From Sodiomyces alkalinus F11 (taxonomy: Eukaryota; Ascomycota; Sordariomycetes; Glomerellales; Plectosphaerellaceae): a DNA stretch of 64,000 bases. Below are positions 1 to 30,157 of this stretch, one piece after another. Position 1 is the stretch's first letter. Each line of letters opens with the position of its first letter. The position numbers and the translations under genes are program-made. A model generated the notes under the pieces. The model searched no databases. It saw only the letters and a list, made by a program, of their open reading frames with translations, and was not told the origin of the DNA. The DNA lies in the NCBI RefSeq assembly GCF_003711515.1, contig NW_021167096.1:1-64000 (forward strand). The letters are read 5' to 3'.

Positions 1-50
1 AACCCTAACCCTAACCCTAACCCTAACCCTAACCCTAACCCTAACCCTAA
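1..50. repeat. Telomere, (CCCTAA)n tract
   Basis: Eight uninterrupted CCCTAA units begin at base 1, so the window starts at a chromosome end. The C-rich strand is on top, as expected for a left telomere whose G-rich TTAGGG strand forms the 3' overhang. The tract stops at base 50, where element sequence begins; the last A residues are shared with the element. The length seen here is only what the assembly kept. Confidence 0.98.
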
Positions 51-158
51 ACTCGAGACTTTTTCCTGGATCGGAGGTCCGAGTCGGCACAAACGTGAAG
101 TCGCTTATTATCTCTGCAAACAAAGCGCTCCCCTCTCTAATATATTTAACCCTAACCC
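51..158 (+). mobile_element. Terminal 5'-truncated copy of the telomeric retroelement (last ~108 bp)
   Basis: This stretch matches 3911-4018 over its whole length with two differences, both CA to TA changes (CTTATTA here, CTCATCA there), the change RIP makes. It therefore holds only the 3' end of a second copy of the element at 159-4009. Its left edge joins the terminal telomere directly and its right edge runs into a short AACCCTAACCCC telomeric remnant. It keeps the right half of the hammerhead fold (stem III and the cleavage site after base 85) but lacks the CUGA core. Reading: a later copy landed on the end, was 5'-truncated, and the end was healed by telomerase. Confidence 0.85.
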
Positions 159-1829
159 CGTTTTCGTTTTATTACGATATCAGTCAAGTCAGTCAGGACG
201 GTAAAGGTCGCCCTCCAAGGACACGAAATCGATAAAGTCACGTCGTCCTCCTCCACCCTCCAGGAATTAATTACGATAATTCCCCGTGGCTATTAAGCAG
301 TGCTAGGAGACCACCTCACTAAGAAGTACCGGATTGCGCACAAACATGCTAATATCCAGAGTACTATCGCTATGTACGAACGCCACCTAAACGAATACTC
401 CTTCCCACCTATTATTCGCAACGCGTTAAAGGACCTAAAGCTTTAATTCGTAAAAGAGTTCCTTAGAACGCCGGGCGGATTCAAAGCCCCCGAAGCCTTC
501 AAAGAACAAGTACGCCTAGCACGCACTAAGGTTCTGAAATATGCGCTGCGTCAGAAACAATCAGAACTCGCCCATTTAGCAACGCTCACCAAGGCCGAAA
601 AGGCCAACTGGAAGTCCCTATATGACATAGTGGTGTTGAAGATTGCGGGCAATTTAGGTTATAAAGTGGAACTCGCGGATAGCAAGCTTAGAGCTGCTAC
701 TGCCTTCCCCGTGACCGTGGCCACTAAATACCACACGATACACTAAGCATGCCAGACCTATACCTACCGGGTACTAGCGCTTGCAAGAGCCAGCATCGAT
801 CGCGCAGAGATCCAGAAGATTGCTAAGATATAACTAAAGGATACTACCGACGTGGAAATAACGGATATGTCCAAAGAGCCCGCTATGCGGGATATCGTCC
901 GAGAGGAGCTTGCTACACTTAAACGAGACTTATCTCGGGTCACAGGTTCATCGCCACCAGCCAAACGGCGGGGAGACCAACTAACAACTAACAGGGAAAG
1001 CAAAACCCTCCGGATAAGTATAGAAAAAACTATCTAGAAAGAAAGGAGGGAAGAAGAATAATGGAAAGAAGAAGGGAAAGAAGTCTCGATAGACGCTTAC
1101 CTCCATGAATGTTCCCGGGAATTTCGTCCATAGGCTCCGGACACCTTCCCAAATATATATACTAGTCTAAGTGATAGTTACAGGTTAAAAATTAGAATCG
1201 CGTTCTTACGAGAATGGGAGGCAGATTCACTTCGTGTATCTCGCCCCGGTGTTTTCCAGTTCCCAGGTGTCCACCTCCCAGATAATATCGAGTACATATT
1301 AGCTATCAACCATAAGTACATACTACACCCACGACTAGAGACACATAACGTCGCCTCGGCTAAAGAACATTTCGCAAGAATGGTTCGTATCCGATGGCAG
1401 TTCAGAAATGAAACGTCGAAAAAGGAGTTTATACCCAAATTCCATATCAAGAATCCGTTTTGGTAACCGTAAAAAGCCTCCCCGGCGATTAAACTTGGCC
1501 TGACTAAAGCCATGGCAGTGATCGACTCCCATGTGAGTCGAGCACTGGCGACCATGGCCCTATCGGCCCCCAGACAGAGAAATCTAAACTAGACTAGGGT
1601 TTAAGACTTCTTTGTTAAGCACGGTCTCCTTATAAAGCTCATAGATAAGAATCTAGGACTTACGGTGTTCACGTCAGAATAGTATTCTTAAGAAATCCAA
1701 AAGATGCTCGCCGATATTACAACCTATAAATAGGTATAACAGGTAGATATAGAAAAACTCCTCGGCTAGCTTAAGACCGGCCTCCTGAAATGGAAGCTGC
1801 CTCCAAATATAGAGAAATTTGTGAGAGAA

Positions 1830-2890
1830 AAAACAGAGTCAAAGATCCCAGAGTTCCACGCGATCCCCAAGGTACATAAGAATCCTTAGACTCTACGACC
1901 AATCGTCCCCTCCCACTCATAGGTAACGAGTCGTCTCTCAGAAGTTATCGATCACCTATACCGTCCGATCTTGGACGAATTGCCGTGGGTTGTTAATTCT
2001 ACTAAACAAGTAGTCAATAACCTGTCCAAGCTACGGGTCGAACCTGGAAAAGATGTTTAGTTTTGCACCGGGGATATAGTTGCATTCTACACTAACATCG
2101 ATGCTCGGAAATACGCCAAGACTATGGCCGGAGCATAGAGACAGTATCTCCCAGATTCGAAAATCCAAGATAAAATAATCAAAGAAATGATTAAGTTTAT
2201 TATGGATAATAATTACTTTTTATTTTCCGACACCCTATGGAAACAGCTAAATGGTTTAGCCATGGGTACCTCGTGCGCCCCTATCCTGGCAAACATCTAC
2301 GCTGTATTCTTTGAAAGGAAACATCGATTAACCTCATAACCTGGGGTTTTACTGTATAACCGGTACATCGATAACATCTTATATATCTTTTAAGGAACGA
2401 AGAAAGAATTGACAGACTTCCTACAATGTGTTCAGCTTGGGTCGCTAACTATTAATTAGTCCTTTTTATTACTAAAGAAGGAGTTTCTGGATATAGAAAT
2501 CCTTAAGCTCTTGACCCCGACCGGACCACGAATTAGTACGCGTCTCTTTAAAAAATAAATGAATCGGCACCTTTATATTCCCTGGTCGTTAGCTTATCCC
2601 CTTTATATGAAGAAAGCCTTCGTTAAGGCGGAGCTTATACGATTTGCTATTATAAGTTCTGAAGTCGGGTATTTTGCAGATACTCGCGTATAGTTCTTTG
2701 GTAATCTAAGAAGGAGAGGGTATCTATCTTAGATACTGGAAAACTGGTTTTCCTAAGTGTTATACGACGATAGGCCTATCTTTTTATCCTCCTAAAAGGA
2801 GACACTAGAGCACGCGCCACTTATATTATCGGGCTAGTATAACCTAGTATAGGAATATATAAATATCGAAGAGATTATTCGGATAGCGAG
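1830..2890 (+). pseudogene. Penelope-like reverse transcriptase relic
   Basis: One frame (codon starts divisible by 3) can be followed without a frameshift across this interval. In order it shows: a PKVHK box followed by LRPIV; motif A as GDIVAFYTNI, the counterpart of the Penelope 'DVVSLFTNIP' block; motif B as NGLAMGTSCAPILAN; and motif C as YIDN where an active enzyme has two adjacent aspartates. About fifteen stop codons interrupt the frame, all TAG or TAA and none TGA, as RIP of CAA, CAG and TGG codons produces. The second catalytic Asp reads AAC, a G-to-A change in a TG context. Coding-like sequence probably extends left to about 330, but I could not assign domains there. The gene is dead. 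Confidence 0.8.
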
Positions 2891-3883
2891 GTAAGAATAG
2901 AATTAGGAAAAGAACTTACCTGATTCCCTTTCTGGGCCGTTAATCCGAAGTCTTAGCAGACACACGAGTCTTTTCGACTTACTATTTACTTAGAATAAGA
3001 CGATCTTATACCCTTATATACAGAGTTCCGAATACTCCGCGTAAGTACCTCGTGCTTTACCGCTTCCGCGAGGAGGCGGGCCTCCGCTGCCCGCCCCTAG
3101 TGCGCCGCGAGGTGTCCTCGGGGGCTTCTATGCACCGCGAGGTGCCCCTGGCGATAGGGCGGTGGTCCGGGTGCCCGGGCGGAACGCGCTAGAGTTAGTA
3201 GACTTATCGGCTGCTAGGATAGGGTCCGAAAAGATATCTAACAGGATATGAGTATTCCCTGGCTAGGGAGGCTATTAGCTTAGCTTTTTACGAAGGTGCC
3301 CCCCCGGGGTAGTAGCGTTTAGGACGCTACGGAGCACCGCCCTATAAGCTACGTCGCCACGCCTCTTCCACCCGGGGTGCCCCCCTTAGGGGTATCGCCC
3401 TTAGTGGCTCGTGCTATATATTAGTCTCCTCTAAGCCGGACGATATCCTAGTACGCGATTATACCCAGCCCCGATAAGGTCTCCGTCACTATAAGATATT
3501 ACAGATTTCATTCGATAAAAAGAACGGTGACAGGTTACCTAATTAAAGAGGCTTTATAGGTTTAAACCCCTAACCCTAACCTAAACTAATCCTAACTAAG
3601 TCCGCTAATCTTAGCTCCCCCGTGTGGCACACGGTGCGGATACTATATATTACGTAATTATAGTAGGAAAAAAGGTTTTAATTAGCTCTTATATATAAGC
3701 ACGGCAACGCGTATATGCATAAGCAGCTATATTTCGTCACACGCCAGTGCTCCAATCACAGACCGTGGTTAGCGAGGAGGTCGGCGAGGTAAACCACCCT
3801 CGGGGTCTTAAGGTCCCCGAAGGAAGACACCTTACCACCTTGCTCACGAGCATAAATACGGCGCATCCCACGACACTTAGATA

Positions 3884-3949
3884 TGCCCTGATAAGCCTAA
3901 GCACGGCGAAACTCGAGACTTTTTCCTGGATCGGAGGTCCGAGTCGGCA
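3884..3949 (+). ncRNA. Hammerhead ribozyme fold (type I), G8 replaced by A
   Basis: The strand folds as a stem-I-open hammerhead. Stem I: TGCC (3884-3887) with GGCA (3946-3949). Core: CTGATAA (3888-3894). Stem II: GCC (3895-3897) with GGC (3905-3907), 7-nt loop. Core: GAA (3908-3910). Stem III: ACTCG (3911-3915) with CGAGT (3940-3944), capped by a further GAC/GTC hairpin. Cleavage would fall after C3945. The A15.1-U16.1 pair and C17 are in place. The consensus core is CUGANGA; here the G (base 3893) is A, a TG-to-TA change as RIP makes. That G is the catalytic general acid, so this copy should not cleave. Hammerheads are known in Penelope-like elements. Calling the fold real rests on all pieces fitting in order. 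Confidence 0.75.
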
Positions 3950-4006
3950 CAAACGTGAAGTCGCTCATCATCTCTGCAAACAAAGCGCTCCCCTCTCTAA
4001 TATATT

Positions 4007-4030
4007 TAACCCTAACCCTAACCCTAACCC
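4007..4030. repeat. Internal telomeric repeat at the element's 3' junction
   Basis: AACCCTAACCC units continue for about 24 bases directly after the element's 3' end (CTAATATATTT) and stop at TTTTAGGGGG. They are the probable remnant of the chromosome end onto which the element was copied. A shorter telomere-like run (CCCCTAACCCTAACC) lies inside the element near 3567. Confidence 0.85.
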
Positions 4031-5340
4031 TTTTAGGGGGTCTTATAGGGGCGTTCTTATTATTATTATTAATAAGGGTAGCTATCTCGAATAACCTCTA
4101 CGCGTAGCCTTTAAGGTACGCTAGGAGAGGAGTATACCGGTATATTTTTATAGAGTATATATAGTATTTCTTCCCCCGATTAGTTTAGCTATAATAGAGG
4201 CGCTTATACTTCCTATCAGCGATATCGCGCGTATAAAGGAGGTATAGCTTAGTATAAATATTACCGGAAGGGTATTAAAAAGGCCGACTACCCGCCGATT
4301 TTTTCTTCTTAGGCGGCGGCGAGGGCGATAACGCGAATTATTAAACGGTTAGTATCGCCTTAAGACGTAAGAGTGTTATACCTATATTATTATCGGCGGC
4401 ACGCTTATTACTATTATTACCCCTATTATTACCGGGGGCTAACGCTATCTATAAAAACGATATAAGTTAGTAAAGGGTTCCTAATAAAAAGATTACGAGT
4501 AAGAGATAGCTTTCCTTAGATAGGGAACTCTTAAACTAGCCGAGTATTAATATTATTATCTAAGGACGGGCGATATTAGAGGAATTATCGTTATAAGGAA
4601 AAAGAGTATATACGTAACCGCTATTACTATTATTATTATTATTAAACGTAGGGAGGGAAATAGAGGAAAAGAGGGCCTATAAGGAAAACGGGGCCAATAT
4701 ATCTACGGATAGTATCTACGCGAGGGTAGCATATATTACTATTTCGGGCACGTAAATAAAGGTTAGTAGGCTACTTAAGATTTCTTTAATATCGAGGTAA
4801 GGGCGAGGTAAGATAAAAAAACGCGACTATTCCTTTATTACCGCGACGTAAAGGGGAGCTAAACTATAACGGTAACGCGTGGTTATATAACCCCCGGAGG
4901 GAGAGGGGGGGAATAGTATTACGGGTTAACCCCGATATAAAGGATCCGGCTATACTCCGGATCTTCCTAACTACGCGCTTAGTTAATAGACCTATATCGT
5001 TAAGTCATCGCTACCTTATAGCTAGCCTAGTGCTATAGACTTTTCTCCTTTTCCTTCCTTAGTTCTAGATAATCTATTATTACGACCTTACTTAGTGCCA
5101 CGACCTATAACTAGTCGTTTATAGGGCGATTAAGGGGTATATTAAATACACTATAGTCTTTTCGGTTACGTAATAGGCCGGATTACTAAGAGTATAATCC
5201 GGGTAGACGCTTATAGAATCTGCACTATATAAAATACGGTGGCAGCGTTTCCCTAACGGTCTAAGACAGTTATAGTTATATATAATTGCCTTAATTAATT
5301 TTAACCTATTTTATAACGATTTTGACTACGCTTTATCTGA
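4031..5340. repeat. TA-rich RIP-degraded repeat debris, no gene
   Basis: Dinucleotides CA and TG are scarce while TA and CG remain frequent, with many short TTATTATTA runs. This is the usual end state of RIP on duplicated DNA in Pezizomycotina. No reading frame or known domain can be followed, and the source element cannot be named. The normal coding base composition resumes abruptly around 5350-5500, just before the 3' end of the first gene. Confidence 0.75.
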
Positions 5341-27966: not shown

Positions 27967-30157
27967 CTGGAGGGTGAACCTTCGTTGTGGGAGGATATTT
28001 GGCTACCTCTCGGCCATCCAACGTAAGTTTACTCGGACTTGTGTTTCGTAGGTAGTGGATTAGCAGCGAGGGATAGCCAGCATATGGTGGTAGCAGTTGT
28101 AGCATGGGTACGTTCTGTGGGTCTTTTATGCTTAGTCACAGACCTCACCTTTATAAGTGCCATATGCCACTTCTTCTTTCGCCTTCGGGCATTTGGTCAA
28201 TTTGAAACGATACAGAGAAGATGTAAGTTGACCCACCTAGAGGTCCCCCTTTCGAAACGCAGAACTAACAACCTTTACAGTAGCATGGCCCCTGCACTAA
28301 GGATGACACGCTCAATCAAAGAGAAGCTACAAATTTTTTTGTCTTTTCAAATTCCTGTGCATTTCTTTCTTTTTTTTTTTTTTTTTGGCTATTCTGCTTT
28401 GGGCAGTGTAGAGTTTCTGAATGGCGGAAGGAGTCTCGGGTATTCCAATGAAGCAAATGGAACCGCGTGAGTCGAGGTGAGGAGCTGCCTTTGGCTTTTT
28501 ATGGTGGCTCGAACTTTGGCTCTGATGATGACTCTGGACATTACTGGATCGCCAGTGGGCCTCTCGAGGGTCAAATGCGTGTCTAGTTCCCCGGCTCCAA
28601 TAGAGTCGTAGGTTAAACAATGAGTAGGTTCATCTGTGCCAGCGTCATTAATAATAAGAACTCTGATTTGCGCTACGCTCACAACAGCAGCCACGAGTCG
28701 GTACGAGTGCTATGTCTCCGATAAAACAGCCGTGACGAGAACCGACCACGGACTGTCATGTCAGTCGTGCAAACATCACCTCCGTTGGTCATCAAAAACA
28801 TCAACGGGTGGATTTGGAGTATTGTCGATGCCCGTGTCGTCTCCTGGACTGACAAGACAAGTCAGTTCTCTCCAAAGGGGACCTGGTCTCATGGGTCCAT
28901 ATCAATTTGAATGTGAGCTATAAATTGTTTTTCCACGCGCATAAACATATCGAGAACATAGTACATGTATCATAACTATCATAAAAGCCGAATATACTAC
29001 TTCTTGAGGAGTCCGCAAACATCAAATCTTCCTCAGAGAGAAATATTCGTCGTACGCTGTAAATAGCTAAGAGCCTTGATACGACCTGTTTGACTTGTTG
29101 CCGAACTCTTTCCTTTTCCCACCACCCGAACAGAGGGTGGACAAGCTGGAAAACACTGAGATGTCGATCAACATGGCATTGTACAACATGAACCACGATG
29201 ATACGTGACCTTTCCAGGGAGTCACTATTGAGCACACCGATGGACGACCTGGATAGCTTTCCCCGATGTCGGTGACTAGAGATACTTGCCACGGTAATGA
29301 TACGGGGTGTTCTTACCACATTGTTGGCCAAACTCGCCCGATGGAAGCCACGTCTGCAGGGAAATGGAGAAGAATCACAGGAAAACCTCAACGATTGGAG
29401 AAAACCGAGGGCCCTGCCCTGGATCTTTGCGTTGCGTGAGGAGCACACGGTCGGAAGTCGAGAAAAATTATCTTATCAATCTAATCACCATCAGGCAATT
29501 CTATTGGCTCTATGGATCAGTGCTAGTTCCAATCTTCGGCCCCACTCACTCAGGTGACTTGGCTTTGTACCTGACGAGTCTCACGAAGTTCTTCTTAGGT
29601 CGCTCCAAAGTTAGTCTTTCCACGCGAATCGCATCCAGCAACACTGAAAAGCAGCCTTTGCTACCAGCAGAGAGCCATGCCATAGGATTTCCTACATTCT
29701 AGAGTCGAGTGATATGATTCTCTAAAGATCAAAGACTTCTAGATTGCCAGGCTCTGTATGTATGTTGCCTCCTTTCCCAAGTCGACCAATAGACAGCTTA
29801 ACATTAGTCTCAAATGTGCTCATATTGCGTTTTCCTTAAAACTCCTCTCTTACCTCCACGTTTATGGAAAATGGTTATGATATCTCTGCTTCGTATTATT
29901 TTCGTCTACTTCTAAGATAAGTCGAGAGGCTTTTTTCATATGACCTTGATAATATCTTTCGATTTCAACGATTGCAGTGCATGCATACAGAGAGAAGAAG
30001 CGTCGAATGTATGATGGTGCGAGAGATACCTCCGAGGTACTTTGAAAGAGACCCTTGTGACACACACTTCAACGTCGACTCCACCGAGCGACATCGCTGA
30101 GAGCCGACGAACCGCCATTTCGTATTCGTCGTCGGATCACTAGTTCTGAAGCCCAGA
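27967..30157. other. Intergenic, shared upstream region of COG2 and HapX
   Basis: About 2.2 kb with no convincing gene. For an iron regulator one looks for GATA and CCAAT signals: a GATAAG lies near 29915 and an ATTGG (reverse CCAAT) near 29501. Both words are common by chance, so this is weak. A T17-type homopolymer lies at 28370-28386. Confidence 0.35.

Follow-up and report, generated by a model that had tools for sequence, protein, structure and literature searches.

A decayed Penelope-like retroelement, probably of a telomere-attaching type, at a chromosome end of the soda-lake fungus Sodiomyces alkalinus

INTRODUCTION

Among fungi, the endonuclease-deficient Penelope-like elements (PLEs) of basidiomycetes go under the name Coprina. 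In ascomycetes, a telomere-localized PLE family (family 4) has been described from Mycosphaerella graminicola, in a paper of 2014 that mentions repeat-induced point mutation (RIP) nine times (PMC4522978). The reverse transcriptases (RTs) of Penelope elements resemble telomerases as well as group II introns (PMC12477314). In the present study, we analyzed the first 64,000 nucleotides of contig NW_021167096.1 (C18; 269,938 bases) of Sodiomyces alkalinus F11, a stretch referred to below as the window, which forms the left end of this contig in an assembly of 43.4 Mb and 22 contigs (GCF_003711515.1). A broken RT frame stands between telomeric repeats at its outer edge, and we interpret this locus, with a probability of roughly 0.85, as a dead copy of an endonuclease-deficient PLE that attaches to chromosome ends.

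RESULTS AND DISCUSSION

Architecture of the element

From the outside inward, the locus consists of a (CCCTAA)8 terminus, an outer direct repeat (R1), the RT frame, a 3′ region, a hammerhead-like fold, an inner copy of the direct repeat (R2), a 25-nt telomeric tract, and a dispersed repeat (Table 1). Telomeric repeats cap the 5′ end of the element, which is directed toward the telomere, while TTTAACCCTAACCC and the tract at 4007-4031 provide telomere-complementary repeats at its 3′ end. An earlier note on this DNA had described CCCTAA repeats on both sides of a decayed RT with its sense strand pointing inward, and both points are confirmed: the two tracts are perfect, and the RT frame lies on the + strand with the telomere outside its 5′ end. 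The inventory of parts given there was sound for the telomeric flanks and the RT but overlooked the 110-nt direct repeat, the hammerhead-like fold, and the cut-off dispersed repeat. The structure of this single RIP-killed copy is well preserved.

R1 and R2 both end in TTTAACCCTAACCC, with telomeric units directly after, and they differ at only two positions, both with T in R1 for C in R2 and each before A, as is typical of RIP. R1 opens within the hammerhead core, its first bases matching the AAAC that comes after stem II in R2, and it directly adjoins the outer telomere. The sequence CCCTAACCCTAA occurs 10 times in the window, compared with 0.01 expected from shuffles. An exact 21-base telomeric pattern has 85 matches in the assembly, 84 of which lie at seven contig ends; the remaining one, at C18:4010, falls in the inner tract and is the only exact match away from contig ends. 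The longest telomeric tract of the assembly, C8:1-234, is imperfect, and the 21-base pattern is interrupted twice within it.

Table 1. Coordinates of the element and its flanks in the window
Feature	Position	Strand	Basis or remark
Terminal telomeric repeat, C-rich strand	1..50	+	8.3 copies of AACCCT, perfect
R1, 110-nt direct repeat, outer copy	49..158	+	108/110 identical to R2 (98%)
PLE-type reverse transcriptase, broken open reading frame	177..3038	+	34 stops in frame 156-3038, no frameshift
Element 3′ region, RIP-marked	3039..3883	+	TpA/ApT 1.75, (CpA+TpG)/(ApC+GpT) 0.61 (computed for 3039-3910)
Type I hammerhead-like fold	3884..3949	+	Layout search and minimum-energy fold
R2, 110-nt repeat, inner copy	3909..4018	+	Direct-repeat comparison
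Inner telomeric tract	4007..4031	+	4.2 copies of TAACCC, perfect
Dispersed repeat, strongly RIP-marked, cut off at telomeric tract	4029..5123	.	Other copies continue past junction

The reverse transcriptase and its relatives

The RT is carried by one frame of 961 codons (156-3038), whose in-frame stops comprise 18 TAG and 16 TAA codons. The RT frame reported earlier at 1830-2890 is real but makes up only part of this longer frame. The start of the relatives' proteins aligns with about position 177, and the C-terminal ends of some relatives suggest that the frame may extend to about 3251. The YxDD motif reads YIDN (2364-2375), with N at the second aspartate. Neither a Pfam search nor a PDB search by sequence returned a match for the broken protein; therefore, its relatives were used instead. 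With frame residues 435-961 as the query, 185 proteins among 8000 scored candidates were recovered at E <= 0.001, the best being 70% identical. Seven of the 120 matches listed have an NCBI name (two from Pyricularia and one each from Pochonia, Aspergillus, Cordyceps, Metarhizium, and Beauveria), and a profile built from nine distant members recovered 39 proteins in a second search, including three more named ones, from Diaporthe, Aulographum, and Teloschistes, the last two of which are short (307 and 292 residues). All ten named relatives are from ascomycetes, belonging to nine genera. No DNA of the relatives was found in viral contigs or prokaryote genome contigs. In one Pyricularia sp. protein (P0030), about 90 RT-core residues are present twice, through either a real duplication or a misassembly.

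Of the 113 listed relatives that have no NCBI record, 84 have a longest contig of 3600-4110 bases (<3300 in 10 and >4400 in 8; median, 3812), and the R-to-R unit in the window is 3860 bases. We infer that this clustering of metagenome contigs at 3.6-4.1 kb, seen over many distinct relatives, reflects tandem or telomere-flanked units in short-read assembly. The large number of such relatives, most of them on contigs close to one unit in length, and the nine named ascomycete genera suggest a group that is both widespread and under-annotated. A quick tree of 130 proteins, calculated without bootstrap from relatives only and with the window row flagged for unusual composition, pairs the window RT with P0002 and places Pochonia within the same group of six, in a different part of the tree from Metarhizium, Cordyceps, and Beauveria; all four of these genera are Hypocreales. 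Horizontal transfer, prompted by the Aspergillus and Pochonia proteins near the window RT in this tree, was considered and set aside, since with Pochonia apart from those three genera parallel lineages are an equally good reading.

A profile of 47 relatives matched a 299-residue piece of the host TERT at E 3.7e-6 (probability 87%), versus 0.06 for the RT of a presumed host long interspersed nuclear element (LINE; L051) and 0.073 for that of a presumed long terminal repeat (LTR) element (L052), each comparison being made with one host sequence and the LINE and LTR labels being our own reading. This result supports a relationship of the element RT to telomerase. The host itself has a TERT gene.

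The earlier observation that no GIY-YIG frame can be read in the element holds in two kinds of search. A genome-wide search that read through stops found none in the element and a sole match elsewhere, on contig C4, and of the 47 relatives, all of which matched RVT_1, none matched GIY-YIG at E <= 0.1. A GIY-YIG domain eroded by RIP may nonetheless lie below detection in the window copy. Separately, the RVT_1 matches at C9:4200-4679 and C17:1326-1805, both near contig ends, have equal scores and equal stop counts and possibly represent one duplicated stretch.

A hammerhead-like fold at the 3′ end

Upstream of the telomere-complementary repeats lies a hammerhead-like motif, a putative ribozyme composed of stem I (3884-3887/3946-3949), stem II (3895-3897/3905-3907), and stem III (3911-3920/3936-3944). 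Cleavage is predicted after C3945, with UC at the cleavage position. Measured against the hammerhead core rules and consensus, only position 3893 departs, in a RIP context, and the rest of the core is conserved. The motif was first spotted by eye, and the layout search was written afterward; in its loosened form, which allows either purine at one core position, this search gave one match in 64 kb on both strands and one in total over 300 shuffles of 1-4100. The same form gave no match in 40 block shuffles or in 26 further genomic loci totaling 111,093 bases, some of these loci being copies of one another. By minimum energy, the 66-nt piece folds into the three-way junction formed by these stems, and stem III contains an additional inner helix.

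R1 includes bases before the cleavage site; therefore, its template would have been uncleaved there. In the Anolis system, insertion in vitro does not require hammerhead cleavage (PMC11167929). The combination of a hammerhead and adjacent complementary telomeric repeats has been described for telomeric Penelope elements (PMC6431247), which argues against a telomere-specific LINE as the source of the locus.

The inner junction lies on a cut-off dispersed repeat

Immediately inside the inner telomeric tract, positions 4040-5123 of the window form a copy of a dispersed repeat with at least 41 matches, including the window's own, from 40 scored candidates of a total of 630. All nine copies that were fetched (L036-L044) have sequence beyond the point that corresponds to the window junction, which in three pairwise comparisons extends to the flank edge (~1.5 kb) in eight of the nine and for ~0.7 kb in L043. 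The match to the window crosses a short gap to 4025-4029 in three of the nine copies and stops at 4040-4041 in the other six. One end of the repeat, near 5123, is common to the copies, and the other lies beyond the window copy. Since the other copies run past the junction, the chromosome appears to have been cut inside the dispersed repeat, near a CC shared with the telomeric tract, and we infer that either telomeric units or the element itself joined at the cut.

RIP damage and copy number

The composition of the frame is shifted in the direction expected of RIP. Its TpA/ApT ratio is 1.18 (a host gene, 0.59; remainder of the window, 0.73), and its (CpA+TpG)/(ApC+GpT) ratio is 0.77 (1.02 and 1.07, respectively). 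R2 lacks this shift (0.5 and 1.0), and the dispersed repeat at 4040-5123 bears very strong RIP marks, with a (CpA+TpG)/(ApC+GpT) ratio of 0.11. Where the aligned close relatives (four to eight of them) all agree, the window copy keeps the shared residue at 336 sites and differs at 53. With the RIP class tried first, a single CpA-to-TpA change is compatible with 42 of these 53 differences and a C-to-T change in another context with 4; 7 fit neither, and none fit the opposite transition. Similarly, glutamine or tryptophan is the commonest residue among eight close relatives at 22 of the 34 stops, plus one tie. The host also has DNA methylase genes from the family to which the RIP enzymes belong. 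The proposal that the RT had decayed in a host with RIP is supported by both the replacements and the stops.

The element occurs at one of the seven captured telomeric ends. A distribution over several ends, which is a usual rather than a defining trait, is not seen here, and over their last 6 kb the other six telomeric ends have nothing but telomeric repeats in common with the element-bearing end. The earlier note had suggested looking for copies at other chromosome ends and had regarded mostly internal copies as contrary to a telomeric element; no further copies were found in the assembly, either at other ends or at internal, non-telomeric sites. Only 7 contig ends carry telomere tracts; therefore, further copies may be missing from the assembly.

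Weighing the telomere-attaching reading

The polarity of the element, its 5′ cap, its telomere-complementary 3′ end, and the hammerhead all fit an endonuclease-deficient PLE that attaches to telomeres, the reading that we favor. Judged from the sequence, the identity is firm, apart from clade placement relative to Athena, Coprina, and Neptune, and the mechanism is one suggested by the anatomy.

Several results weigh against it: (i) no second copy of the element was found in the assembly at either the DNA or the protein level, and RIP requires a repeat; (ii) the strict hammerhead consensus has no match in the window, no Rfam hammerhead was found at gathering or loose thresholds, and the 96-nt piece gave none at E <= 10; (iii) the folding of this 96-nt piece is not better than that of shuffled sequences (z, −0.18), and stem III is retained in its minimum-energy fold whereas stems I and II are not; and (iv) the best PDB profile matches, at a weak E of 0.007, are to group II intron-type RTs, and the matches listed include no TERT. 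With respect to the first point, because RIP needs a repeat and only one copy was found, the other copies would have been lost or left unassembled. With respect to the last, the earlier note had named a grouping with LINEs or group II introns as contrary to a Penelope identity; no such grouping appeared when this was judged by profile, but group II intron-type enzymes head the weak PDB matches.

The sequence of events that we propose is as follows. This chromosome arm would first have suffered a break within the dispersed repeat, after which a few TTAGGG units would have been added to the broken end. An element RNA with its hammerhead uncleaved could then have annealed to the G-rich overhang by means of the CCCUAA units at its 3′ end, and with this overhang as primer the element's own RT would have copied the RNA, no nick being needed. 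Priming of the RNA 3′ end by the G-rich overhang of an eroded end had already been suggested in the earlier note, and both the polarity and the 3′ tract are consistent with it. R1 would most likely represent the 3′ tail of another copy located further out, the 5′ part of which either was not copied at all or was eroded away, and telomerase would then have capped this outer copy. RIP would have mutated the reading frame later, while at least two copies existed.

One step of this scheme has a serious competitor. R1 could instead be the 5′ end of the same RNA, transcribed from a tandem donor with pseudo-LTRs, so that a single copying event would suffice; this would alter one step and not the identity of the element, and we consider it a plausible but less favored possibility. 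Its main attractions are that R1 equals R2 except for the two RIP-type changes and that most relatives without an NCBI record lie on contigs close to the R-to-R unit in length, as tandem units would assemble. Penelope elements are also known in tandem or partial tandem with pseudo-LTRs (PMC11167929). However, the first base of R1 falls midway within the hammerhead core, exactly where the telomere joins, and this resembles a 5′ truncation rather than a transcription start.

A second variant, which we regard as unlikely, concerns the origin of the inner junction. Here, the element would have healed the break itself, its CCCUAA-bearing RNA being copied from the exposed 3′ end inside the dispersed repeat. 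In that case, the retroelement instead of telomerase would have supplied the template for the inner 25-nt tract.

Somewhat more doubtful still is an origin without copying onto the end, in which recombination between chromosome ends or capture at a double-strand break would have brought the element to the terminus. The single copy found, sitting on a cut-off dispersed repeat, would suit such an event, and telomeric tracts are recombinogenic. Against it, telomeric units follow directly after both R copies, as expected of a 3′ end, and the last 6 kb of the six other captured telomeric ends hold no donor, although uncaptured ends could hold one. Finally, fungi do have telomere-linked LINEs, but a telomere-specific LINE of the MoTeR or CRE type is highly improbable here, and a LINE origin was rejected on the RT profile scores given above.

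Elsewhere in the window, positions 28181-28338 (+) contain a U6 spliceosomal RNA gene that is split behind its ACAGAGAAGAU box by about 58 inserted bases, probably an mRNA-type intron.

Comparison with known systems

Judged against the open-licence literature searched, three points are new: the host, the presence of a hammerhead-like fold in this copy, and a junction placed on a dispersed repeat that is cut off. Fungal Penelope elements with hammerheads were reportedly described in 2014; if this is right, the hammerhead would not be novel. A soda-lake Sordariomycete would join the hosts of telomere-attaching Penelope elements, with a 3′ end combining a putative hammerhead and telomeric repeats in an ascomycete copy, and the element on its cut-off dispersed repeat would be a natural record of such an element meeting a damaged end.

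Among the described systems, the Poseidon element PAc of Anolis resembles the present element in its single open reading frame with a Penelope RT, its tandem pseudo-LTR layout, and its hammerhead; in contrast, PAc has a GIY-YIG endonuclease and cuts AT-rich DNA (PMC11167929). The PLEs of Agaricus bisporus and the basidiomycete Coprina elements, compared here by description, are likewise fungal and linked to chromosome ends, but the A. bisporus transposons are taken as not degenerated by RIP (PMC7473861). A closer anatomical parallel is provided by the bdelloid Terminons, which carry Athena RTs and have a 3′ hammerhead followed by reverse-complement telomeric repeats (PMC6431247) and which are likewise 5′-truncated by telomeric repeats and arranged in head-to-tail arrays (PMC6431247, PMC12477314). 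Unlike the compact element of ~3.9 kb with one RT frame described here, however, Terminons reach 40 kb, have accessory open reading frames, and reside in animals.

The M. graminicola family also bears on novelty. The earlier note had expected a telomeric copy in an ascomycete with RIP to extend the known picture, but this had already been published for that species (PMC4522978). The abundance of the two differs, as 34 full-length and 49 truncated copies are reported there, with full-length elements on 26 of 41 ends (PMC4522978), and one copy was found here. The sections on that family do not mention a hammerhead (PMC4522978), and the likeness is one of description, not of sequence. Nevertheless, the features shared are an ascomycete host, full-length elements of 3.4-3.5 kb in M. 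graminicola, the lack of an endonuclease, TTAGGG units at the 3′ end, and a 3′ end pointing away from the telomere, and the M. graminicola family includes 13 cases of a truncated and a full-length element in tandem (PMC4522978).

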